Source of the DNA: Myxococcales bacterium
Lineage (GTDB): Bacteria; Myxococcota_A; UBA9042
Reading direction: 5' to 3'
Assembly (NCBI GenBank): GCA_023954815.1
Contig: JAGSHB010000037.1
Location: forward strand, 1 to 39,021
Length of the DNA: 39,021 nt
How positions within the stretch are numbered: position 1 is the stretch's first letter; every line of letters begins with the position of its first letter. The notes beneath the pieces are model-generated. The model was not told where the DNA came from and made no database searches. It saw only the letters and a program-made list of their open reading frames with translations. Both the position numbers and the translations under genes were made by a program. Shown here piece by piece: positions 4,880-38,587 of the stretch.

Positions 4880-5830
4880 TCACTGCGGGGCGATTGCATC
4901 TCGAATCTGCGTCGGCAGGGGCGGGGGCTGGGTACGGTGAATGAGCGCAGCGAGCTGCCGCAGTCCAAGCAGGAGCCGCGGGCCTGGGCGACTGAATAGA
5001 TCAGCTTCGATGGCAAACACGCGATCGTTTTTCACCGCCGGGAGTTGGTCCCAACCTGGTCGTGCCTTGAGTTCAGCGATGCGCGTGGCATGAAACTCTC
5101 GCGGGCAACTCAGCACGATCAGCGCCGGGCGCGCGGCCAACACTTGTTCGGTCGAGACTTGAAACCAGCTGCCACCGTTGGCCATGACGTTGATTCCGCC
5201 AGCCGCCACAATGACATCGTCCACAAAAGTGCCGCGACCGACGGTGTGAGGACGACCACGGCCAGCGTCGAGCTCGACGTAGACCTTGGTACCCACGGGC
5301 TTGAGTTGACGGATCGCCTGCACTTCCTGGTTCCAATGGGTATGAAGCTGTTGTGCCCGCGCGGGTTGGCCACAGAGATCGCCAATGGTCTCGATCGTCC
5401 GCCCGATGTCGTCGAGCCGCTCCGGCGCGAGGCCTGTCCACGGAATACCCGCCGCGGCGAGCCCCGTCTGGAGTTGCTTTGGCGGAAAGTGAGTGAGGAC
5501 GCGATCGGGCTTGGCGGTGACGATGGCTTCCACCGATGGCACGAGTCCCGTCAGTTTGGGGGCACGCAATGCCGCCGCCGGAAAGTCGCTCCAGCCATCC
5601 CGCGCAACCAGCGCGTCGCCGCAACCGACCGCAAATAGCACCTCAGTGAGAGCGGGGGACAGGGAGACGACGCGCTGGGCTGGCGCGGCGAGAGCGGAGG
5701 ACGTTTTTGCTTGGTCGTCGGAGCGCTGACAGCCACAAGCTCCCAACGCCAGCGTCATGGCGATCAGGCAGCGGAAAAGCGTGGCGCTAGAGGCATCGAC
5801 GGGCCCGAAAAACCGGGCAGTAGGCGCCAT
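4880..5830 (-). CDS. btuF: BtuF-type periplasmic corrinoid-binding lipoprotein
   Basis: A 316-residue substrate-binding protein of the BtuF/FhuD (helical backbone) class. It begins with a lipoprotein signal ending LGAC (Cys32). The mature part starts with RVVSLSPALTEVLFAVG, the usual first strand and helix. It contains the PSVEAIVTAKPDRVL segment, the aromatic WFQVSTEQVLAARPALIV segment, and a C-terminal FSRPGPRLLLGLRQL helix. These correspond closely to the matching parts of E. coli BtuF. It would hand B12 or another corrinoid to a BtuCD permease, which is not in this window. Its ATG overlaps the stop codon of the propeller gene (TAATG), so translation is coupled. Heme or iron-siderophore binding is the main alternative. 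Confidence 0.82.
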   Translation of the reverse strand: MAPTARFFGPVDASSATLFRCLIAMTLALGACGCQRSDDQAKTSSALAAPAQRVVSLSPALTEVLFAVGCGDALVARDGWSDFPAAALRAPKLTGLVPSVEAIVTAKPDRVLTHFPPKQLQTGLAAAGIPWTGLAPERLDDIGRTIETIGDLCGQPARAQQLHTHWNQEVQAIRQLKPVGTKVYVELDAGRGRPHTVGRGTFVDDVIVAAGGINVMANGGSWFQVSTEQVLAARPALIVLSCPREFHATRIAELKARPGWDQLPAVKNDRVFAIEADLFSRPGPRLLLGLRQLAALIHRTQPPPLPTQIRDAIAPQ

Positions 5831-7101
5831 TACAGCTTGCCTCGAAAAGCGAAATGCACCGCCGGAAGGGCGTCCAGAGAGAGGTGTTTGAGCAGTTTGG
5901 TCCCAGCACCGCTGACGTCCAAAATGACGATGTCACCGTCTTTATCGTGGGCGTCGCTCACCCAGAGGCGATTGTTGATGCTGTCGTACCAGAGTCCGCC
6001 AATCGCAAATGGGCGGCTGCCCCTCCAAACCAGTGTGGGCGGGCTCTTGCCAGTGGGATCGTAGCGCCACACCTCATCCGGTGCCTTCGTTGGGGCGAGG
6101 GTACCGAGTCGTACGAACCAACCGCGCTTATCACCGTCCTGTACGACTGGAAAGCCAATGACACCGCCGACAGCGCTCCCTTTGACGATGACCTGGACGG
6201 CACCGGAGTTCGGGTCGAGTCGGTAGATTCCCGAGCGGGAAATTTGGTCGGCGGGCTTGGCCTGGAACCAGCCGCTGCAGGTGCCAATCAGCCCGCTGCC
6301 ACCCCGACGCAGGGTGGTGCAATTGTCCAATTCAGCGATAGCGCTCCGGCGCGAGACCTTGCGCGTATCCAAGTCCACTTCGACCACGCGGCCCGGGCCG
6401 ATAGCGCTGAAGTCCTTGGCGAAGGAAGCGAGGGGCAGCCAGATCTTGCTGCCCGAACGAACACCACGCCCCGGGAAGGCCATGGCGTCCTTCAGCGTGG
6501 CCTCGTCACCCAATGCGATGCGGGCCGTGGCCGTGCCTGTAGCGCTGAGGATGAGTATGTCGTCTCCGCCGCTCAGCAGGGAGGCCGTCGGGGTCGGATC
6601 GGGTTGCGCTCGAACCACGATCACCTCGTCGCCGTGACGCCACACATCTTGCGGATTCGCCTGAAACCCATCGCTGAGGGGCCACTGGGTAGGGGCGCCC
6701 CCTCCGACCCAGGTCAGCACACTTTGGGCACGGTCGAGCACAGGGAAGCGCCCATCCGACCGGGCCTCGCTGCCGGGGACGACATCACCGCTCAATGCGC
6801 TGCCAGAGGCAGAAACGACGGTTCCCGAGTGCAAGAACCCGGCGTTCGCAACCGTCATTTTGTCGGGGTCGACCCACGAGAGTTGTGTGCTGCCATAGTC
6901 TGTCGCCACCACCAACAGTGCGCCTTCCGCATCGCCGTTACCACCGCTGGAGGCCCCCGCAGTGTCATCGATACACCCGGAAAAGAACCCCGCCATCACG
7001 GCGAGTCCGAGCCATCCCACGAGCTGGCAAGAGACGTCGATTGGGGGCCATCTGCGCTTCAGTTTGCACCTCTTGGTCGCCAGACCAGGTTCAGCATCCA
7101 A
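5830..7101 (-). CDS. Beta-propeller surface lipoprotein, BtuG-like
   Basis: A 423-residue protein with a lipoprotein signal (basic KLKRRW, hydrophobic core, FSGC with Cys43). The mature part is made of repeated blade-like segments such as LLVVATDYGSTQLSWVD, DDILILSATG, GRVVEVDLDT, DEVWRYDPTG and GDIVILDVSG. This is the pattern of a YncE/DUF5074-type seven-bladed propeller. It lies between a TonB-dependent receptor and a BtuF-like protein and overlaps both genes. In Bacteroides, BtuG is a surface propeller lipoprotein that captures B12 for BtuB (established knowledge). Position and fold suggest the same role here; that is inference, since no binding residue can be recognised. The start at 7101 lies inside the receptor gene (43-nt overlap) and gives a rather long n-region; a later non-ATG start is possible. 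Confidence 0.8.
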   Translation of the reverse strand: MDAEPGLATKRCKLKRRWPPIDVSCQLVGWLGLAVMAGFFSGCIDDTAGASSGGNGDAEGALLVVATDYGSTQLSWVDPDKMTVANAGFLHSGTVVSASGSALSGDVVPGSEARSDGRFPVLDRAQSVLTWVGGGAPTQWPLSDGFQANPQDVWRHGDEVIVVRAQPDPTPTASLLSGGDDILILSATGTATARIALGDEATLKDAMAFPGRGVRSGSKIWLPLASFAKDFSAIGPGRVVEVDLDTRKVSRRSAIAELDNCTTLRRGGSGLIGTCSGWFQAKPADQISRSGIYRLDPNSGAVQVIVKGSAVGGVIGFPVVQDGDKRGWFVRLGTLAPTKAPDEVWRYDPTGKSPPTLVWRGSRPFAIGGLWYDSINNRLWVSDAHDKDGDIVILDVSGAGTKLLKHLSLDALPAVHFAFRGKL

Positions 7102-9230
7102 GTTCGTCCCGGCAGTGGAAGCCCGACGCGGTCAAACTGCGCGGTGTCGAGCACGTTGTCGAATCGGGCGGCGATCCGCCAGTTGCCCCGCTGGACGTGC
7201 AGTGATGCATCCAGTTGCGATCGGGCCGGGATAATCAGCAAATTAGCGCGATCTGCGAAGGTGCCCGCTTGCCATGCGGCGGCGATTCGTGCGCCTACAA
7301 AGGTATGAGCGAGCAGTCGAATCCGGCGCAAGACAGCGCTCAGGTGCCACCGCGTTGCCGGCCGAAGCGGAAGCGCCGTGTCCTTGTACGCGTCGGTCTC
7401 GTCTCGTGCATGCAACAGGCTCCACCCACCCTTCAAGCGCACGTGCTGCCCCCACGTGAGGGCGCCACTGAGTTCTGCGCCAGCGAGCATAGCCGACCCG
7501 ATGTTCGTGTAGATCGCTTGACCGGGCCCGGCCCGCACCAGCTGAATCAAGTCAGTCCTGTCGCTCGCGAAGACGTTGAGGGACGCCTCAATCCGATCGA
7601 GACCGATACCCTCGAGCAGCGCAGGACTCGCTCTCAGGGTGGTTGCCAGCGTGAGCGTTGTCGCCCTTTCATCCTTGAGCTTCGGTTGCGGTCGCACAGT
7701 GCCGTCGTTGCCGTAGAGCTCGACGATTGTAGGCGGGCGGTTTGCGATCGCCAGGCCTGCGGACAGCCGCCACCAGGGGGCCAGCCGATATCCAGCTCCC
7801 AACTCGGCAGTACCGAGCACGCGGGCTGGCACATCGATGCGCTCCCAACGACCGGTCCATGACTCATCGATAAAACGCCGACTCCACAGGGCTTGGCCTC
7901 GAACGGTCGGCGAGAGACGAAGACGCCCCAAGCGCACATCCGCACCGGCGCTGCCGGTTGCAGCCGCCTGCCAAGCGGACGGTGAGCTGCGGTCGACCAG
8001 CAGATCTTCGGTTTGTGCATGCCCAAGCCGAAGCGCGATGGCAGCGCGCGGGCGACCGACTCCGCGGGAACGTCGCCATCGGAACCCCGCGTCCACTGAC
8101 TTCAGGGTTTGAATGCGCGATTGTGCCGGACCCAGCTCTCCCAGCTCATCGGTCACTTGCTGTCTCTCCAACCCACCGCGCAGCCAAACCTCTTTCGCAT
8201 GGCCTTTGCGGCGTGACTGCGCTCGGAGGATGACGTTGTGGGTGTGGGCGTCCAATGCGGCGGAGACCGCTTCTGCGGCGGCGAGACCAGGGAGCCCCTG
8301 ACTGCGCCACGCGCCTAACCACACCAGGCTGCCGCGCCAGCGCTGTCCCAATGCAAACCGCTGCCGCAAGAGCCCGCTAATGCGCTGGACCCTGTTATTT
8401 CGGCGTTTTTTCACGCGATCGTCTTTGGGGTTCAGGGGCGTCCCCGCGTTGTGGAGGTACGGATAGTCTCCCGCACTCGTCAGCCATCCGAGGCTCAGGC
8501 CACTGCCTTTGGACCAACCCCATCGGCCCTCTAGCGCGAAGACCCCATAACTGCCCAGTCCCGCCCGAACCTCCGACCCACGCCGCCTCGGTCGCAGGCG
8601 AATGACGCCGCCGATCGGCGTATCTCCGAGGCTCCCCGGCGCACGACTTCGCCACAGCTCCAGCCCCGCCAATGCGGTTTTGGGGATCGCCTCCAGATCC
8701 ACTGGCCGACCGCTCGCGGACCGCAGCGGGATGTCTCCCAACGTGACCATCGACTGCTGCGGACTCGCGCCGCGCACCATGACCCGTGTCGTACCCCCGT
8801 GCCCGCCCACGCGCGTCACCCGTAGACCCGGCAACCGATCGAGCGCTTCACTGAGGTCACGGGCTTCGTCCTGCAACATGCGCTGGCTCACAACGGCCAC
8901 ATGAGCGGACTCACGGCGGGCAGCTCGAGATGGGCGCGCTCGCCCAACACGCACCGCTCGCGTGGTCACCTCTGCAATGTTGCTGCCCCGGTCGCGTGTC
9001 CGTTGGGGATCGCGGCGCTGGGTTGGCGTGGCGCTCGGAGCCAAGGCGACTGGCACATCTGATTTGGTGCTATTTGCTTGAGTGAGCGGTCTTTGGGCGG
9101 GTTCCGAGCTCGCCGATTCAGCAGCGTCACACGGCCACGCGGCACCCAGCGCAACCACAAAAAGACCCCAAGCGACGAGCCATTGCTGCACGGTGGACAG
9201 CGCATGACTCGTCGCCTGGGGCGCGTGCAC
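7059..9230 (-). CDS. TonB-dependent outer-membrane receptor, BtuB-like
   Basis: A 723-residue receptor with a GTG start at 9230, only 8 nt after the previous stop codon; no clear ribosome site is seen, so coupling is likely. The signal peptide core is WLVAWGLFVVALGAAW. A disordered Thr/Ala/Pro-rich stretch (about 40-95) leads to a plug domain with DLSEALDRLPGLRVTRVGG, RVMVRGASP and the GDIPLRS loop, ending near GVIRLRPRR. The remainder is a 22-strand barrel pattern with alternating residues up to LNLVWRPRGAN. It lacks the usual final aromatic residue. EVTTRAVRVG before the plug may be the TonB box. Plug type, barrel length and the downstream BtuF-like gene suggest corrinoid uptake. Iron chelates cannot be excluded. 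Confidence 0.88.
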   Translation of the reverse strand: MHAPQATSHALSTVQQWLVAWGLFVVALGAAWPCDAAESASSEPAQRPLTQANSTKSDVPVALAPSATPTQRRDPQRTRDRGSNIAEVTTRAVRVGRARPSRAARRESAHVAVVSQRMLQDEARDLSEALDRLPGLRVTRVGGHGGTTRVMVRGASPQQSMVTLGDIPLRSASGRPVDLEAIPKTALAGLELWRSRAPGSLGDTPIGGVIRLRPRRRGSEVRAGLGSYGVFALEGRWGWSKGSGLSLGWLTSAGDYPYLHNAGTPLNPKDDRVKKRRNNRVQRISGLLRQRFALGQRWRGSLVWLGAWRSQGLPGLAAAEAVSAALDAHTHNVILRAQSRRKGHAKEVWLRGGLERQQVTDELGELGPAQSRIQTLKSVDAGFRWRRSRGVGRPRAAIALRLGHAQTEDLLVDRSSPSAWQAAATGSAGADVRLGRLRLSPTVRGQALWSRRFIDESWTGRWERIDVPARVLGTAELGAGYRLAPWWRLSAGLAIANRPPTIVELYGNDGTVRPQPKLKDERATTLTLATTLRASPALLEGIGLDRIEASLNVFASDRTDLIQLVRAGPGQAIYTNIGSAMLAGAELSGALTWGQHVRLKGGWSLLHARDETDAYKDTALPLRPATRWHLSAVLRRIRLLAHTFVGARIAAAWQAGTFADRANLLIIPARSQLDASLHVQRGNWRIAARFDNVLDTAQFDRVGLPLPGRTWMLNLVWRPRGAN

Positions 9231-9238
9231 AGTGCGTC

Positions 9239-10396
9239 TTAGGGAGCGGCGCAGATGTTGCTGCTCTGGTTGCAGGCCGACAGAAACAACGGCGTGGTGA
9301 TGGCCGTGTGCTTGGCGGCTGGGATGCTCTCAATCTTCATCGAGCCGCCGAAGTAGATCTGCCCGTCCGAATTGTCGATCGTCGATACCGACACGCCGAT
9401 GACCTTACTGGTGATTCCGCACAGTACGAGGCCCTTGGCACCCGCCGGGATGGTGCACGTGGGTGTGGCGAACTGCAGGTCGATGACCCGCTGCGAGTAC
9501 TCACTATTCGAGCTGATGGCGCAGGGCTTCTTTGCAAACGCGTCGGTCATCGGGACGACGACCTTGTTGTTGCCGTCACGAATCTCGATCAACACCGACT
9601 GCGTGTTCTTGTCGAAGCAGGATTTGCTGTCCGAGAACTGCCAATCGAGGCTGATGGTGGCCCGCAGATCGACCATGGCGATCGGCTCCTTGACGATGAC
9701 AGACATGCCCGGCGCGACCACGATGGGGGCTGTTGGCTGTGCATTGCCCCAGGTCAGAACGCCCCCGGCCGTGGCGCCGTCGAGCTGCACGCGGTAGGTG
9801 CCTGGCGCGACGCCGGTCATGTTGATGCCGCCGTCTTTGCAGGCCGTCGATGCCGTTGAGAGCACTTTGCTGCCCGATACGCCCAGCAAGCTAACCGTGA
9901 CCGTCGCGAGTCCGACTTTGGCGCAGCCGGTCACGGCCGCTTCGGAGCCGATGGTCCAGTGAACCTGGAGCTCACCATTGCCGGTTCCCACGCCACCGCC
10001 ACCCTGGACGAGCGGGATCGTCTCCGTCGCTGTGGTCTGGTTCATGAACACACTGATATTCGACGTGGTGCCGCCGCCGACCTTTTGTCCATTCGGACTG
10101 AGGGCGTCGATGCCGATGGTGTAGGTGCCCGGCGGCAAGAAGACCGAGTGAACACCACGATTGCATTCGATGTTATTGACCTCGGTCTGTTGCACACCGT
10201 CGCGCATGGCGCGGATGCGGACCGTACTGGCGCCGAGCGCGTTGCAGTCGGCCGCGCTCCAGTTGACATCGAGCACGCCGTTGGCGCCGCCATTGGATTG
10301 TACGACGCAGCCGGAAGCCATCAGCGCGAGCGCGACAGCCACAATAAGGGACAAGCGTTTTGCGGGACGAAAAGCTTTTGCAACAAGGGTCTTCAT
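9239..10396 (-). CDS. Repeat-domain lipoprotein, first gene of the uptake operon
   Basis: A 385-residue lipoprotein with signal ending MASGC (Cys30) and a GGAGA ribosome site before the ATG at 10396. Three similar modules can be seen, starting near LDVNWSAADCNALGAS, LQVHWTIGSEAAVTGC and ISLDWQFSDSKSCFDK. Each has a W, one or more Cys and a V-R/V-S strand, and the first two end in a PPGTY/APGTY turn. They look like beta-sandwich (carboxypeptidase-regulatory or PEGA-like) folds. No enzyme motif is present. It is followed after 8 nt by the TonB receptor, so it probably belongs to the same transcript. It may be a surface accessory of the receptor, but that is only inference from position. Confidence 0.8.
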   Translation of the reverse strand: MKTLVAKAFRPAKRLSLIVAVALALMASGCVVQSNGGANGVLDVNWSAADCNALGASTVRIRAMRDGVQQTEVNNIECNRGVHSVFLPPGTYTIGIDALSPNGQKVGGGTTSNISVFMNQTTATETIPLVQGGGGVGTGNGELQVHWTIGSEAAVTGCAKVGLATVTVSLLGVSGSKVLSTASTACKDGGINMTGVAPGTYRVQLDGATAGGVLTWGNAQPTAPIVVAPGMSVIVKEPIAMVDLRATISLDWQFSDSKSCFDKNTQSVLIEIRDGNNKVVVPMTDAFAKKPCAISSNSEYSQRVIDLQFATPTCTIPAGAKGLVLCGITSKVIGVSVSTIDNSDGQIYFGGSMKIESIPAAKHTAITTPLFLSACNQSSNICAAP

Positions 10397-10471
10397 CGTG
10401 GGTCTCCTGAGTCCGAGCGACTAGCTGGCGAAGTGAATGTGCCGCCTCACTCATCTAACGACCGGGGTCGC

Positions 10472-10500
10472 ATTGTATTCAGTCCGCGCCGGAGTGCCAG
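10472..10500 (-). promoter_or_regulatory. Likely sigma-70-type promoter of the TonB receptor operon
   Basis: On the minus strand CTGGCA (10495-10500) and TACAAT (10472-10477) are spaced by exactly 17 bp. The -10 hexamer matches five of six consensus bases and the -35 four of six. Transcription would begin near 10465, leaving a leader of about 70 nt, too short for a cobalamin riboswitch. Confidence 0.5.
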
Positions 10501-10587
10501 CCCAATGGTCGCTAGCGTGTTGGAAAATGGACGTCTTTAACAAGGGGGGGGAAACTAATGGTGGCCGCACGGCTCAGGAGTTGAGGT

Positions 10588-11412
10588 ATGGGTAGACGCA
10601 ACGGACGGCATCCAATGGAATCTTGCGTGGTCCTATCGGTCTGTGCGGTGTCGTTGTTGCTGACCGGATGCGGCGGTGCGGCACCGATCTATCCGACTAC
10701 GCCGGACGAAGTCGCGTTGCTGCAACCTGCTTCCAGCGGTCACTTCCTGCCACCCCAGCGTCGATATGTTCACCCGGCGCTGCGCCAACGCATCGGCCGG
10801 TCGCGCCGGCCTGCCGGGCCTGCTCGTGCGCGGCGAACGCCTCGACCGCGGCGGTCGACCCAATTGCAGCGCAAGCGCCACAAACGGTCTGATTCTCAGG
10901 CGAAATCGCGTCAAACCCGCTCGCGCATTCCGAGTCGCCAAACGGCGCTGTTGGGTCAGCAGCGGGTCGAGGCAGCCACGGAGTTGTTGGGCACGGCGGG
11001 GCTCAAAGAACGCGCGTTTGTCGACCATGTACTACATGCCGTTGGTGCGCCGATCAGCGTGGCTCGGCAACGTCCCTACGCTGGCGCCCTCTGGCACTCC
11101 CTGCGTAATCGTCGCGTTCGCCAGCCGCGGCCAGGTGATCTCGTCTTTTTCCGAAACACCATGGATCTGAACGGCAACGGGCGACCCGATGACGGCGTCA
11201 CCTGGGTTGCCGTGGTCGAGCGTGTCGATGGTCGCCGCGTGCTCTTCGTTGGCCAGCGGGCGGGCAAGGTGCGGCGCATGTCGCTGTCGCGTTCCCGGCC
11301 TCGTGTGGTTCGAACTGACGGCCAGGTGCTCAACACCCGCCTCGTACAGTGGCCCCGTGAATCCCGCCCACGCACTGCCGGTCAGTGCTTCGCGGGCTTC
11401 GCTCGTCCGTAG
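10588..11412 (+). CDS. Degenerate NlpC/P60-like lipoprotein
   Basis: A 274-residue lipoprotein (lipobox LLTGC, Cys28) starting at an ATG with AGGAG seven nt upstream. Residues about 30-120 are very rich in Arg, Pro and Gln and probably disordered. The C-terminal half follows the layout of NlpC/P60 amidases of Myxococcota: a helix AATELLG, a segment FVDHVLHAVGAP, PRPGDLVFF, the NGNGRPDDG loop, a WVAVVERVDGRRVLFVG strand pair, and a closing AGQCFAGFARP. The catalytic Cys of the usual DCSGFV motif is absent (KERAFV), and the catalytic His before the VGIV-type strand is replaced by Trp (TWVAVV). It is therefore probably a binding pseudoenzyme, perhaps on peptidoglycan. The family assignment rests on motif order only. 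Confidence 0.72.
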   Translation: MGRRNGRHPMESCVVLSVCAVSLLLTGCGGAAPIYPTTPDEVALLQPASSGHFLPPQRRYVHPALRQRIGRSRRPAGPARARRTPRPRRSTQLQRKRHKRSDSQAKSRQTRSRIPSRQTALLGQQRVEAATELLGTAGLKERAFVDHVLHAVGAPISVARQRPYAGALWHSLRNRRVRQPRPGDLVFFRNTMDLNGNGRPDDGVTWVAVVERVDGRRVLFVGQRAGKVRRMSLSRSRPRVVRTDGQVLNTRLVQWPRESRPRTAGQCFAGFARP

Positions 11413-25587: not shown

Positions 25588-26913
25588 ATGGTGAAGCCCC
25601 ATGACGACCCCGCAGCTGAGGTGCCAATTGGACAGGACATCACGCTTACGGGCGTGGTCGCTCAGGTGACAGGTACAGGTGTCAGAGAGCCCGGTACCGA
25701 TGGCGCGGCGTTAGATGATGCCGCCGAGATGAAGACGGCCGAGTACAAAGCGGTCGCCTCTGCCGGTCCCCGTACCGACGACACGCGTGTCGATGACCGC
25801 ACTGCCTCCGTTCCTGCCTTGCCTGCCATGGCCGGTGAGCCTGAGCCGGAATCGGTTGTCAGCACGCCCAGACGCCGGCCTCATACAGACTCTGGGATGC
25901 ACGTTGCCACTCCGCCGGCGCAGGCGGCGCTCCAGATGATCCGACCCTTGGTGGCCTGGTCGCCGGCGGATAGGTTGCTCGCCGCCAAACTGCACCACGA
26001 CATCATCGCCCCCCACACCGAGGCCCTAGCGCGGGATTTCTTCGACAACATGGCTAAGCACCCCGCCGTGCGCATGTTTGTCGGTGCGGGGCCTGCGCGC
26101 GCACGCATGGCGTCCATGTTGCGGGCGCACCTCGACACGTTTGCGAAGTCACCCCTCAGTGATCCCTGGGTGTTGGCGCGGATTCGAATCGGTCACGCCC
26201 ATGCCCGGGTGGGCCTGCCGATCGCCGCGTATCTCGCCAGCATTCACGCGCTGGAGGCCCTGATCGAGCCGAAGTTTCCGCCTCATCTCGCCGCACGGCG
26301 CACGGAGGGCCGTAAACTTCGCGAACTGTTGCGGCGGCTCTTGGTCATTGAAGCCGCCTTAGTCACGCAGGCCCATCACTCCGCTCAGGTCGATGCGCTC
26401 AATGATGCGATGCGGCAGCAGGCCCGGGCAGGTTTCGCCCGCCAATACGGCACACAGGTCGACCCGGTCACGTTGCTAGCTCGGCCGCAGCACTTGCGTA
26501 CTCAGCTAGCTGCAGCCCTGCAGCGTCCCGTTCGAAAGGGGCGTGGCTGTGCGTTGATGGTCCTGGAGTTGGTGGGTCTGCAGGAGGCGGCGTGGCATCG
26601 CGGCTACGCCTACCGCGACGGGATCCTTGCCGAAACAGGGGCCCGCCTGCGCGCCACATTACGCGGCGCTGATGTAGCTGGAATCGAGCCCGACGGCCGT
26701 ATTTTCGCGCTGCTTACCCAGCTTAAAACCAAGGAAGTGCCCATCGTCGCCCGCCGGATTCGCACCGCGATCGAGGAGAGCGCGTATGCCATCGGAGGCC
26801 ATAGTTATCGTCAGGAGCTGCGAATCGGCGTCGCCCTTCCAGCGCCACAAGACGCAGCTAGTCCGACGAATTCCCTGATTGAGCGAGCGTTGGCAGACCT
26901 CACCATGGCCTGA
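25588..26913 (+). CDS. Globin-coupled sensor with degenerate GGDEF domain
   Basis: A 441-residue cytoplasmic protein. Residues 1-110 are disordered (Pro, Thr, Asp rich). A globin-coupled sensor domain spans about 118-270: DFFDNMAKHP, RMASMLRAHLDTF, and the proximal-His segment RIRIGHAHARVGLPIAAY, with His205 placed as in HemAT-type sensors. The C-terminal part (about 310-435) aligns with a GGDEF domain (ILAETGARLRATLRGADV, then FALLTQ, then ARRIRTAIEE). The GGDEF signature is changed to PDGRI and the metal-binding Asp of the first strand is lost, so it cannot be an active diguanylate cyclase. It probably senses oxygen or NO and signals by protein contact. It sits within the purine/pyrimidine-type operon, suggesting oxygen control of that pathway. 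Confidence 0.78.
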   Translation: MVKPHDDPAAEVPIGQDITLTGVVAQVTGTGVREPGTDGAALDDAAEMKTAEYKAVASAGPRTDDTRVDDRTASVPALPAMAGEPEPESVVSTPRRRPHTDSGMHVATPPAQAALQMIRPLVAWSPADRLLAAKLHHDIIAPHTEALARDFFDNMAKHPAVRMFVGAGPARARMASMLRAHLDTFAKSPLSDPWVLARIRIGHAHARVGLPIAAYLASIHALEALIEPKFPPHLAARRTEGRKLRELLRRLLVIEAALVTQAHHSAQVDALNDAMRQQARAGFARQYGTQVDPVTLLARPQHLRTQLAAALQRPVRKGRGCALMVLELVGLQEAAWHRGYAYRDGILAETGARLRATLRGADVAGIEPDGRIFALLTQLKTKEVPIVARRIRTAIEESAYAIGGHSYRQELRIGVALPAPQDAASPTNSLIERALADLTMA

Positions 26914-34939: not shown

Positions 34940-37900
34940 GTGAGGGCGGGTCCTGCCTCACTCGTTGGCTTCTGTGCCCGGGTGCTGCTGTTGGTGCTGG
35001 TGACTTCGGCGTCGCCGCTAGGTTTTGTCTACGGGCAGCCGACCAAGGCGGCAAGTCCTCCCAAGAAGTCGCCACCCTCGCCTGCCACCCAAGCGCTTTG
35101 TGGTCACTTCACCCAACGCAACGATCTGTCCTTGTGTCGAATTGCCTGCCCGCGTTGGCCAGCGACTCGCCACTGTCTCCTAGCGCGCCGTTTCGGCGAC
35201 CTCGGCATGGCGGTCTTGATTCACGCGATCAAGCACAAGCGCCCCGTCCTTCAAGTGGCCAAGGAAGGCAAGATGCCGGCGGCGGACGGGCGCGCCCTGA
35301 TGCTGTGGGCGGATGTTGCCGGCTTCAGATCGGTGGCTTGGGTGAAGCCGCCGCCGCTCGACAAGACTGGAAAGAAGGACGTTCAGCGCGCTCTGAGCTT
35401 GCGAAAGGACGCGGTCGTCGCCCACCGAAAGCACGATGCGACGACGACGTTGCGGTTGTTGCGCCAGGCGCACGCCCTGTTCATGCGACGACTCGGCCCC
35501 AACCACCCGCGCACCTTTGAGACAGCTGGCCAGGTCGCTTACACCCTGATTCGGCTTCGAAACTTCGATGCCGCAGACAAAGTACTGAAGCAGCTTCTCA
35601 TTCGGCAGAAGGTTGCCTATGGCCCGGGTCATCCAAACACGGCCGACGCGAGGCAGCTGCTCGGTCAGATTGCCTTCGAACGACAGCAGTATGACAAGGC
35701 TCGGACCCACTACTTGGCGGCCATGAAGGTCGCTGTGTCGGTATGGGGCACCTCGCACCCAAAGGTCCGGGTGCTCTGGAATAATCTTGCCGGAACGCTA
35801 AATGAGTTGGGCGATGACGCGGGCTACGAGCGCGCCTACCGTCGTAGCTTAGCCATCGCTCAAACCATCTTCGGCCCTGACCACAACTATGTTGCGACCG
35901 ATCTGACCAACCTGGGTGTGCTGCTGATGGAGCGCGCCAAGCACCAAGAAGCTGAGCGTCGGTTGCTCGGTGGCATTCGGATTCGCCAAAAAAATGACGC
36001 ACCAGCGGCTGACATTGCCGGTAGTTATCACAACCTGGGCGCGCTGAAGCAGTTTGGTGGGGATTTCGCGCAGGCGAAGCGGTACTTGAGCAAAGCCCTT
36101 GAATTTTGGGGGCGTGGTCATGATCCAAAGCGGCTCAAACGAGCGAGCACGCTCCTCATTTTGGGTCAGGTGTTGCAGGCGATGGGTGATTTTCAGGGCG
36201 CTATGGTCGGATTTCGGCAGTGTCTGGACATTCGACAGGCCGGGCTCCCGCGCGGTCACCCTGACACCGCGCGTGTGCTGATGCAGATGGGCCAACTCAT
36301 GGATTACATCGCCGCAAAAACACCAGCGGGCCAGGAGCGGACGGACGCGCTAGACAAGGCACGCCAGCTGCTCTCTTCCGCGCACGTGCAGACGCGCAAG
36401 GCGCTTGGCGAGGGCCACCCGGACACCATGCGCAGATTGGCTGCCCTTGCGAATCATTTCGTGAGTCGTGGTGAACCGAAGAAGGCGGCGCCGTTGCTAG
36501 CGCGGGTCGTCAAGCAGCTCACCGCAAAGCTTGGGCCTGCTCATCCGCAAGTCGGCGCAGTCTGGAATAATCTCGGCGTGGCTCAGGCGGACGCAGGGCA
36601 ACTCTCGCAGGCGTTGAAGTCCTATCAGAAAGCGGAGAACGTGCTCACCCGGGCGCAGGGGGCCTGGCATCCCGACGTGCAGGCTGTCAGGCTTAATCGG
36701 GCGCGCATGCTCCTGGCCTTGGGGCGGGTGCGTGCCGCGACCAAGGTTGCGTCCACTGCATCCGATCAGCTCCTGGACCACATCGCCGCCTCGGCCTCGT
36801 CGGCGAGTAGCGACATGGCGCTGTTGCAGCAGGTCTCTCGCGTCAGCGGCCTCTTCAACGTGGCGACGAGCGCCTATGCCCTCGCTCGCAACCCACGCGG
36901 CGGATTTGCACACGCGCTGCGTTGGCAGGGCGCGGGGACACGATTCGAGCAACTTTGGCGTCAACTCAAGCGCGCCGAGGCGACGGCCAGCCCTCAAGGA
37001 CGTCGGACGCTTCAAGCCTACCAGCAGGCGAAGCGGACGCTGTTGAGGCTGCGCGGCGCGGGACCTGCGGGCTCGGCGAAGGACACCATCTCGCGCGATG
37101 CGGCTGCGCGGCGGCGTAGTTTGGCCGCCGTTCGCAAGCGGCTAGCGGGCCTGCAGCGTGATATCGCTCGGCATGTCCCAGTGCTTTCGCGACATTCGCA
37201 GGCGCTCCGACCGACGGTGAAGGGCGTATGTGCTGCCCTGCGGCGAGACCGGTCATCCCTGGTGGATTTCGTACAGTACGTTCGTCTTCCCACGGGTGAG
37301 GCGCGCTATGGTGCGTACGTGGTCGATGGCAAGCGCTGCAAGGTGCGCTGGATCGAGCTGGGAGCGGCTTCAAATGTCGAGGCAGCCGTCGGCGCGTGGC
37401 GCTCCGGAATCGATGCTGCCACGCGGTGTTTTGGGCGCCGTAAGGTGCGCTTCTGCAAACGCCCATTTCGGGCGCTCGATCAGGCTGGCAAGCGTCTGCG
37501 CAAGCTGATTTGGGACCCACTTGGCGGCGCGCTCGGTGCTGGGAGTCGAACGTGGATCGTACCCTCCGCAGCGCTTGCCTCTGTGGCCTTCGATGCCTTG
37601 CCGAGCCGAGAGGGGCGCTACCTCATCGAAGATCGAGTCCTCGGATACCTACCGCACCCCGCGGCAGCGGTGGCGGTGAGGGCTCGGCACCCCCGGTCAG
37701 GACAGAGCGCGCTTGTCGTCGGCGACCTGGACTACAACGCTGCCGATTCGCCGAACCGTGCCACGCGAGCTTGGCAGACGTGTACTGCGGCTGGCTGCTC
37801 GGTCGCAAAAAGCCCTAAATCACGGCCTATCATCGAATTTTCGGCTACTGTGCGAGGTGCGCCCGTTTGTGGGCGTCTGGCGTCTTGGCGCCCCTTACCG

Positions 37901-38587
37901 CAAACAGAGGCGTCAACGGTCGCTCGCGCGTTAGCCGGGCGCCTCGGGGGGCGTGTGTGGCTGGCTCCTGGGCGATCTGCTCCGGAGGCTGTGGTCCGAG
38001 CGGCGCTCCCTGGTCGACGCTACATTCACCTCGCGACTCACGGGTTCTTCTCCGATCGCAAGACGTGCAGCAAACCTGTGTCCCAGCAACGCATCAACAG
38101 GCTGCTCGCGAGTGATGCAACAGCAGCTGGCGCCACGCCCCTCATCGATCCCATGGCGATGAGCGCCGTCGTGCTCTCGGGGGCCAATGGTTTCGGGCGC
38201 GCTAGGCACCCAAGGTCTGACGGCGTCTTGAGCGCCCGAGAGGTGGCTCGTCTGGACCTGAATGGCACGGCGCTCGCCGTGTTGTCGGCCTGCGAGACGG
38301 GCCTTGGCGTCCAGACCAGCGCAGAGGGCTCACTCGGGTTGAGTCGCGCTTTCTTGGTCGCTGGCGCCGCTCACACCATCGTGTCGTTGTGGCAGGTGCC
38401 ATCGCGCGAGACCACGGTGCTGTTTGAGCGCTTCTACAAGGAGCTGGCCGCCCAGAAGTCCCACGATGACCCAGTGACTGCGCTGCGTCGCGCCCGCCTT
38501 GCGCTGTTGGCGGACCTGCGCGCCCGAAACTTGGCCGCGTCGACCTTTCTTTGGGCGGCTTTTGTACCTTTGTCGAGCGGGCTGTAG
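34940..38587 (+). CDS. Secreted TPR-CHAT caspase-like protease
   Basis: A 1215-residue protein from a GTG directly after the previous stop codon; an in-frame GTG at 34982 is an alternative. A signal peptide is visible (VLLLVLVTSASPLGFVYG). Residues about 150-640 are kinesin light chain-like tetratricopeptide repeats with the G..HP motif (LGPNHPRTFE, YGPGHPNTAD, LGEGHPDTMR, LGPAHPQVGA). A helical linker (about 640-780) leads to a CHAT domain to the C-terminus: LVDFVQYVRLPTGEARY, then the catalytic His1034 (HLATHGFFS) and Cys1118 (LSACETGLG), and the closing AGAAHTIVSLWQVPS. The dyad is intact, so protease activity is expected. CHAT proteins are caspase relatives. Export is unusual, since most such proteins act in the cytoplasm. 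Activation through a ligand of the TPR part is inference. Confidence 0.92.
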   Translation: MRAGPASLVGFCARVLLLVLVTSASPLGFVYGQPTKAASPPKKSPPSPATQALCGHFTQRNDLSLCRIACPRWPATRHCLLARRFGDLGMAVLIHAIKHKRPVLQVAKEGKMPAADGRALMLWADVAGFRSVAWVKPPPLDKTGKKDVQRALSLRKDAVVAHRKHDATTTLRLLRQAHALFMRRLGPNHPRTFETAGQVAYTLIRLRNFDAADKVLKQLLIRQKVAYGPGHPNTADARQLLGQIAFERQQYDKARTHYLAAMKVAVSVWGTSHPKVRVLWNNLAGTLNELGDDAGYERAYRRSLAIAQTIFGPDHNYVATDLTNLGVLLMERAKHQEAERRLLGGIRIRQKNDAPAADIAGSYHNLGALKQFGGDFAQAKRYLSKALEFWGRGHDPKRLKRASTLLILGQVLQAMGDFQGAMVGFRQCLDIRQAGLPRGHPDTARVLMQMGQLMDYIAAKTPAGQERTDALDKARQLLSSAHVQTRKALGEGHPDTMRRLAALANHFVSRGEPKKAAPLLARVVKQLTAKLGPAHPQVGAVWNNLGVAQADAGQLSQALKSYQKAENVLTRAQGAWHPDVQAVRLNRARMLLALGRVRAATKVASTASDQLLDHIAASASSASSDMALLQQVSRVSGLFNVATSAYALARNPRGGFAHALRWQGAGTRFEQLWRQLKRAEATASPQGRRTLQAYQQAKRTLLRLRGAGPAGSAKDTISRDAAARRRSLAAVRKRLAGLQRDIARHVPVLSRHSQALRPTVKGVCAALRRDRSSLVDFVQYVRLPTGEARYGAYVVDGKRCKVRWIELGAASNVEAAVGAWRSGIDAATRCFGRRKVRFCKRPFRALDQAGKRLRKLIWDPLGGALGAGSRTWIVPSAALASVAFDALPSREGRYLIEDRVLGYLPHPAAAVAVRARHPRSGQSALVVGDLDYNAADSPNRATRAWQTCTAAGCSVAKSPKSRPIIEFSATVRGAPVCGRLASWRPLPQTEASTVARALAGRLGGRVWLAPGRSAPEAVVRAALPGRRYIHLATHGFFSDRKTCSKPVSQQRINRLLASDATAAGATPLIDPMAMSAVVLSGANGFGRARHPRSDGVLSAREVARLDLNGTALAVLSACETGLGVQTSAEGSLGLSRAFLVAGAAHTIVSLWQVPSRETTVLFERFYKELAAQKSHDDPVTALRRARLALLADLRARNLAASTFLWAAFVPLSSGL

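Follow-up and report, generated by a model that had tools for sequence, protein, structure and literature searches.

An operon in a 39,021-nucleotide stretch of Myxococcales DNA (the window) very probably specifies those components of a corrinoid (vitamin B12) importer that belong to the outer membrane and periplasm, among them a beta-propeller lipoprotein that would work like the BtuG proteins of Bacteroides. The locus consists of four minus-strand genes between positions 4880 and 10396, encoding a lipoprotein, a TonB receptor, the propeller lipoprotein, and a BtuF-like protein (Table 1). BtuG has been reported as exclusive to Bacteroidetes (PMC6143338), and no BtuG-like protein described in Myxococcota was found in the literature that we searched. 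Our results suggest that BtuG-type B12 capture is far more widespread than thought.

Table 1. Features of the putative corrinoid uptake locus (window coordinates)
Feature	Position	Strand	Remarks
Leading lipoprotein	9239..10396	-	385 aa; tandem Ig/FN3-like beta modules
TonB-dependent outer-membrane receptor, BtuB-like	7059..9230	-	Pfam Plug and barrel; family profile nearest E. coli BtuB
BtuG-like beta-propeller lipoprotein	5830..7101	-	Likely start CTG at 7062; lipid Cys codon 6975-6973 (CIDDT)
CTGA, probable 4-nt stop/start overlap of receptor and propeller	7059..7062	-	AAGAGGTG upstream
BtuF-like periplasmic corrinoid-binding protein (predicted)	4880..5830	-	Sole Peripla_BP_2 gene found in the genome

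All four open reading frames listed in an earlier, sequence-only reading of this DNA are present, as is the TAATG at 5830 that it described as shared by the propeller stop and the BtuF start. The same reading gave the receptor and propeller genes a 43-nt overlap, which is true of the listed frame, beginning at its first TTG (7101), but the actual overlap is probably 4 nt. At most loci of relatives, the receptor gene ends and the propeller gene begins within a shared ATGA or GTGA, and the homologous junction in the window reads AAGAGGTGCAAACTGA, with a CTGA behind the Shine-Dalgarno-like AAGAGGTG; because of this correspondence, a CTG start is more likely than the TTG. The gene set is no chance run of open reading frames, since the receptor-propeller pair was found again in 23 other genomes of a first sample and in further genomes of a second. 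In the closest family, the BtuF gene usually comes next after the pair.

As the propeller protein has no Pfam or NCBIfam match, the earlier guess that it is a beta-propeller needed a structure model. The AlphaFold2 model, built with 29 relatives, is confident (mean pLDDT, 92; pTM, 0.90) and confirmed the guess, with 28 strands arranged as a seven-bladed beta-propeller and no sign of a non-propeller fold. Its nearest solved structures are the BtuG1, BtuG2, and BtuG3 proteins of Bacteroides thetaiotaomicron. Ranks 1 to 6 of a Foldseek search against the PDB are all BtuG (E values of 2.6e-12 to 1.3e-10; next, 1.1e-8), as are ranks 1 to 11 of a structural Z ranking (Z of 31.3 to 29.1; next, 28.1), where the BtuG rows cover 308 to 321 residues at an rmsd of about 3 Å and 10 to 18% identity. 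For the modeled structure, the lead of BtuG over other propellers (Z of 29 to 31 versus 28) is clear but not large. Among the matches listed in the Z ranking, a list that is not a full search, BtuG is the only B12-binding family.

Single-sequence comparison did not recover this relationship. A phmmer search of the window propeller against all PDB sequences, with BtuG1 to BtuG3 among them, returned no BtuG at E <= 1, and neither did a narrow profile of 30 propeller members searched against PDB sequences. A diverse profile of 27 members matched at least seven BtuG chains weakly (E values of 4.9e-4 to 7.4e-3), and its list also holds some other propellers and matches due to chance. Because BtuG leads the fold rankings and the diverse profile matches it weakly, distant homology between the propeller and BtuG is likely. 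In 2018, BtuG was defined by BlastP-type homology to BT1490/BT1954/BT2095 at E < 1e-10 (PMC6143338). The window propeller falls outside this definition, the broad family profile reaching an E value of about 5e-4, and we call it a BtuG-like variant on the basis of fold and context. DUF5074 was considered as a path to BtuG and rejected, as its matches in the host genome and in relatives are other genes.

The propeller was detected in 30 of 90 relatives with a single query. A profile search of 284 genomes of the phylum detected it in 100, with 60 loci classed as strong. Relatives that carry a name are uncultured Myxococcales MAGs. Of the 60 strong loci, 36 have a cobalamin riboswitch on the same strand no more than 5 kb upstream, against 0.04 expected by chance, and several of the remaining 24 are near contig ends. 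The order riboswitch-receptor-propeller-BtuF recurs within the same bacterial family, whereas in other families the BtuF gene is often not adjoining. The sequence-only reading had proposed searching other Myxococcota for the gene set near cobalamin riboswitches; that linkage, along with linkage to BtuF, is what the loci show, and conserved linkage to iron or heme genes, which would have counted against a corrinoid role, was not found. These statistics also bear on whether the propeller is simply a generic protein of the YVTN or lactonase type, lying beside a TonB receptor by coincidence. Propellers are common and populate a crowded fold space (Foldseek gave 792 PDB matches at E <= 0.001), but BtuG structures top both structural rankings, and recurrent adjacency to the receptor and to cobalamin riboswitches across many families of the phylum contradicts such a coincidence, which we consider extremely improbable. 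In one genome (G196, one contig of 10,327,335 bases), three propeller matches (L122, L123, and L134) occur along with six cobalamin riboswitches.

The receptor contains Plug and TonB barrel domains (Pfam), and the host genome has six TonB-plug genes, including that of the receptor. As a single sequence its assignment is ambiguous among NCBIfam models, with MxcH, a siderophore receptor, scoring 75 bits versus 64.4 bits for TonB-B12, the latter being under the curated cutoff of 599.7 bits. A family profile built from 19 receptors of the same loci and compared with solved structures gave a clearer ranking. E. coli BtuB came first (E value of about 3e-45), followed by 9gbc, a TonB-linked receptor without a ligand name, and then by Bacteroides BtuB1, BtuB3, and BtuB2 (2e-32 to 7e-29), with the remaining receptors at 1e-27 and weaker. 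At the level of the family profile, the propeller gene therefore adjoins a btuB homologue.

The match to BtuF reported from the sequence was reproduced. The BtuF-like protein carries a Peripla_BP_2 domain (Pfam E value of 1.6e-29), its best NCBIfam model is BtuF (104 bits, under the curated cutoff of 234), and its best PDB match is 5ysc, a vitamin B12-binding protein. The host genome also has a single FecCD permease (contig C16). Its best models are BtuC (230 bits), and the gene is followed by one for an ABC ATPase with a heme-transporter model as its best match. The genome encodes MetH, methylmalonyl-CoA mutase, and isobutyryl-CoA mutase, but neither CbiC nor MetE was found. Based on this gene inventory, the host is apparently a B12 auxotroph that scavenges corrinoids through one import route, although the absences are no proof, as the genome is only 97% complete and is split into 314 contigs.

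Import of a siderophore or heme, with the propeller acting like the ferrichrome-binding XusB of Bacteroides, would fit the MxcH score of the single receptor and the presence of XusB (9hqk) among the fold matches. XusB of Bacteroides fragilis (PDB 9hqk and 9hqe) is likewise a propeller lipoprotein that serves TonB-dependent uptake of a small ligand, but its ligand is a siderophore and its fold similarity is lower (rank 26). We rejected this reading on the conserved cobalamin riboswitches and on the receptor profile, whose nearest solved receptor is BtuB, and the sole substrate-binding protein and permease found have BtuF and BtuC as their best NCBIfam matches; siderophore or heme uptake is thus very improbable.

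Across the propeller family, the invariant residues comprise D26, SGD, DR, GFxxNPQD, and VxR, which suggest that a face for a ligand or partner is conserved, as well as an invariant Cys pair. In the weak profile alignment, the family motif GFxxNPQD...VxR aligns with GFTSPRYIHFLSDEKAYVTQ of BtuG2. In BtuG2, Trp194 narrows the upper-ligand cavity (PMC10404256); this residue has no counterpart in the propeller family in that weak alignment, so the pocket may differ from that of BtuG2. The window propeller has the lipobox GFFSGC. Of 30 members, 28 have a lipobox Cys, and the remaining two start near contig ends. From the lipid Cys the window protein reads CIDDTAG; within the same bacterial family CxDDT is common, but not elsewhere, and no typical Bacteroidota export signal was seen in the propeller. 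A more distant propeller subfamily (L128-L133, L138, and L139) carries the motif GxGSNPQD and directly adjoins TonB receptors.

These features also leave some room for a propeller that is an accessory of a corrinoid receptor and itself binds no corrinoid, being periplasm facing and structural or receptor stabilizing. The unmatched Trp194 would be compatible with such a role, as would the residues after the lipid Cys, given that surface export of Myxococcota lipoproteins is not readable from sequence here. However, it is specifically the BtuG proteins, which bind corrinoid, that come nearest in fold, the invariant residues point to a conserved ligand or partner face, and in nine loci the propeller start lies within 300 nt of the riboswitch; we judge a nonbinding accessory to be rather unlikely. 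The BtuG role, which the sequence-only reading had drawn from fold pattern and position, gains support from a fold nearest to BtuG, from riboswitch linkage, and from a receptor family nearest to BtuB. In a BtuG-like mechanism, the propeller, as an outer-membrane lipoprotein presumably exposed at the surface, would capture corrinoid there and hand it to the adjoining BtuB-like receptor through a putative lid-type contact. Powered by TonB, the receptor would pass the corrinoid to the BtuF-like protein, which would feed the BtuC-like permease and ATPase encoded on contig C16. As an apparent B12 auxotroph, the host would rely on this route.

Within the window itself no cobalamin riboswitch was detected with Rfam, nor with permissive Rfam settings on positions 9000 to 10800. 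In a same-genus genome (G002), the riboswitch sits between the front lipoprotein and the receptor, whereas the locus of another (G003) has none, with permissive filters too. Because only about 8 nt separate the lipoprotein stop from the receptor start in the window, the riboswitch seems to have been lost from this operon. RNA folding of the junction gave no structure beyond chance (z of +1.0). Elsewhere in the host genome, the best cobalamin riboswitch (C266:814-960) precedes a gene for a secreted protein with two LIC13354-family repeats (L062:997-2115, +), and in G003 a protein similar to the LIC13354-repeat protein also follows a riboswitch (contig C354; L064:7178-8434, -).

The extra lipoprotein that the sequence-only reading placed in front of the operon is present there and is probably cotranscribed with the other genes in the window, but its inclusion in the uptake system did not hold up. 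It is conserved beside the operon only in the same bacterial family, and its model consists of tandem Ig/FN3-type modules. As a candidate for a known B12-binding protein it was rejected, having no Pfam match and structure matches only to Ig/FN3-type folds, with no B12 protein among them. Because it lies on the far (upstream) side of the riboswitch in relatives and has an Ig-like fold without a B12-protein match, we leave it out of the established parts of the corrinoid system. Other Myxococcota encode a lipoprotein between the cobalamin riboswitch and the receptor (L048:12509-14197, -; L050:1286-2656, +; L054:6274-7533, +; L056:6768-7787, +). This protein has an FAVFENGF...ELAFVEVSSDG-like motif, in two of the four cases weakly resembles LIC_13355 (NCBIfam NF033170), and is a candidate for a further corrinoid uptake component.

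The system shares features with two known B12 uptake systems. As in E. coli, there is a BtuB-like receptor, a BtuF-like substrate-binding protein, and, elsewhere in the genome, a BtuC-like permease with an adjoining ABC ATPase. The E. coli btuB and btuF genes do not form one operon, and to our knowledge E. coli has no surface propeller. In common with the BtuG1/2/3-BtuB systems of B. thetaiotaomicron (PDB 8bmx, 8bmy, 8bn0, 8okv, 8p97, 8blw, and 3dsm), which supply the nearest solved folds, a propeller lipoprotein gene lies beside a BtuB-type receptor, with riboswitch linkage that is seen here in relatives. Unlike Bacteroides BtuG, with which it shares 10 to 18% identity, the window propeller is missed by single-sequence search, belongs to another phylum, and shows no typical Bacteroidota export signal, and the Myxococcota propellers have their own invariant Cys pair and GFxxNPQD motif. 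The Myxococcota receptor family also has a stronger match in E. coli BtuB than in Bacteroides BtuB, which would speak against a recent event that simply transferred a btuB-btuG pair from Bacteroidota. There is precedent for B12 scavengers beyond Bacteroidota, as the DUF4465 B12-binding proteins (BtuJ), reported from eight clades including Myxococcota (PMC13398666), are also extracytoplasmic, but BtuJ is a beta jelly roll, a fold other than that of the propeller, and is not the propeller gene.

On balance, we lean slightly toward a Myxococcota-wide, anciently divergent form of corrinoid capture that combines a BtuG-like propeller with a BtuB that resembles the proteobacterial type more closely than the Bacteroidota type, in which case lid-assisted B12 uptake would have been separately recruited or would be much older than the Bacteroidota system. 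The genomes sampled were all Myxococcota and therefore do not separate transfer from independent origin. Lipoprotein-assisted uptake had been proposed as a general Bacteroides feature; if the corrinoid role is correct, surface B12 capture would be a general strategy that reaches environmental, apparently B12-auxotrophic bacteria, and Myxococcota would provide a second lineage in which to study propeller-to-BtuB corrinoid handover. The finding also offers a route to annotating many unnamed propeller lipoproteins.

Two further genes of the window are of separate interest. At 25588-26913 (+), a Protoglobin-GGDEF protein is a globin-coupled diguanylate cyclase and likely a gas-sensing regulator, and the protein encoded at 34940-38587 (+) has a long array of TPRs and, at its C terminus, a CHAT domain.
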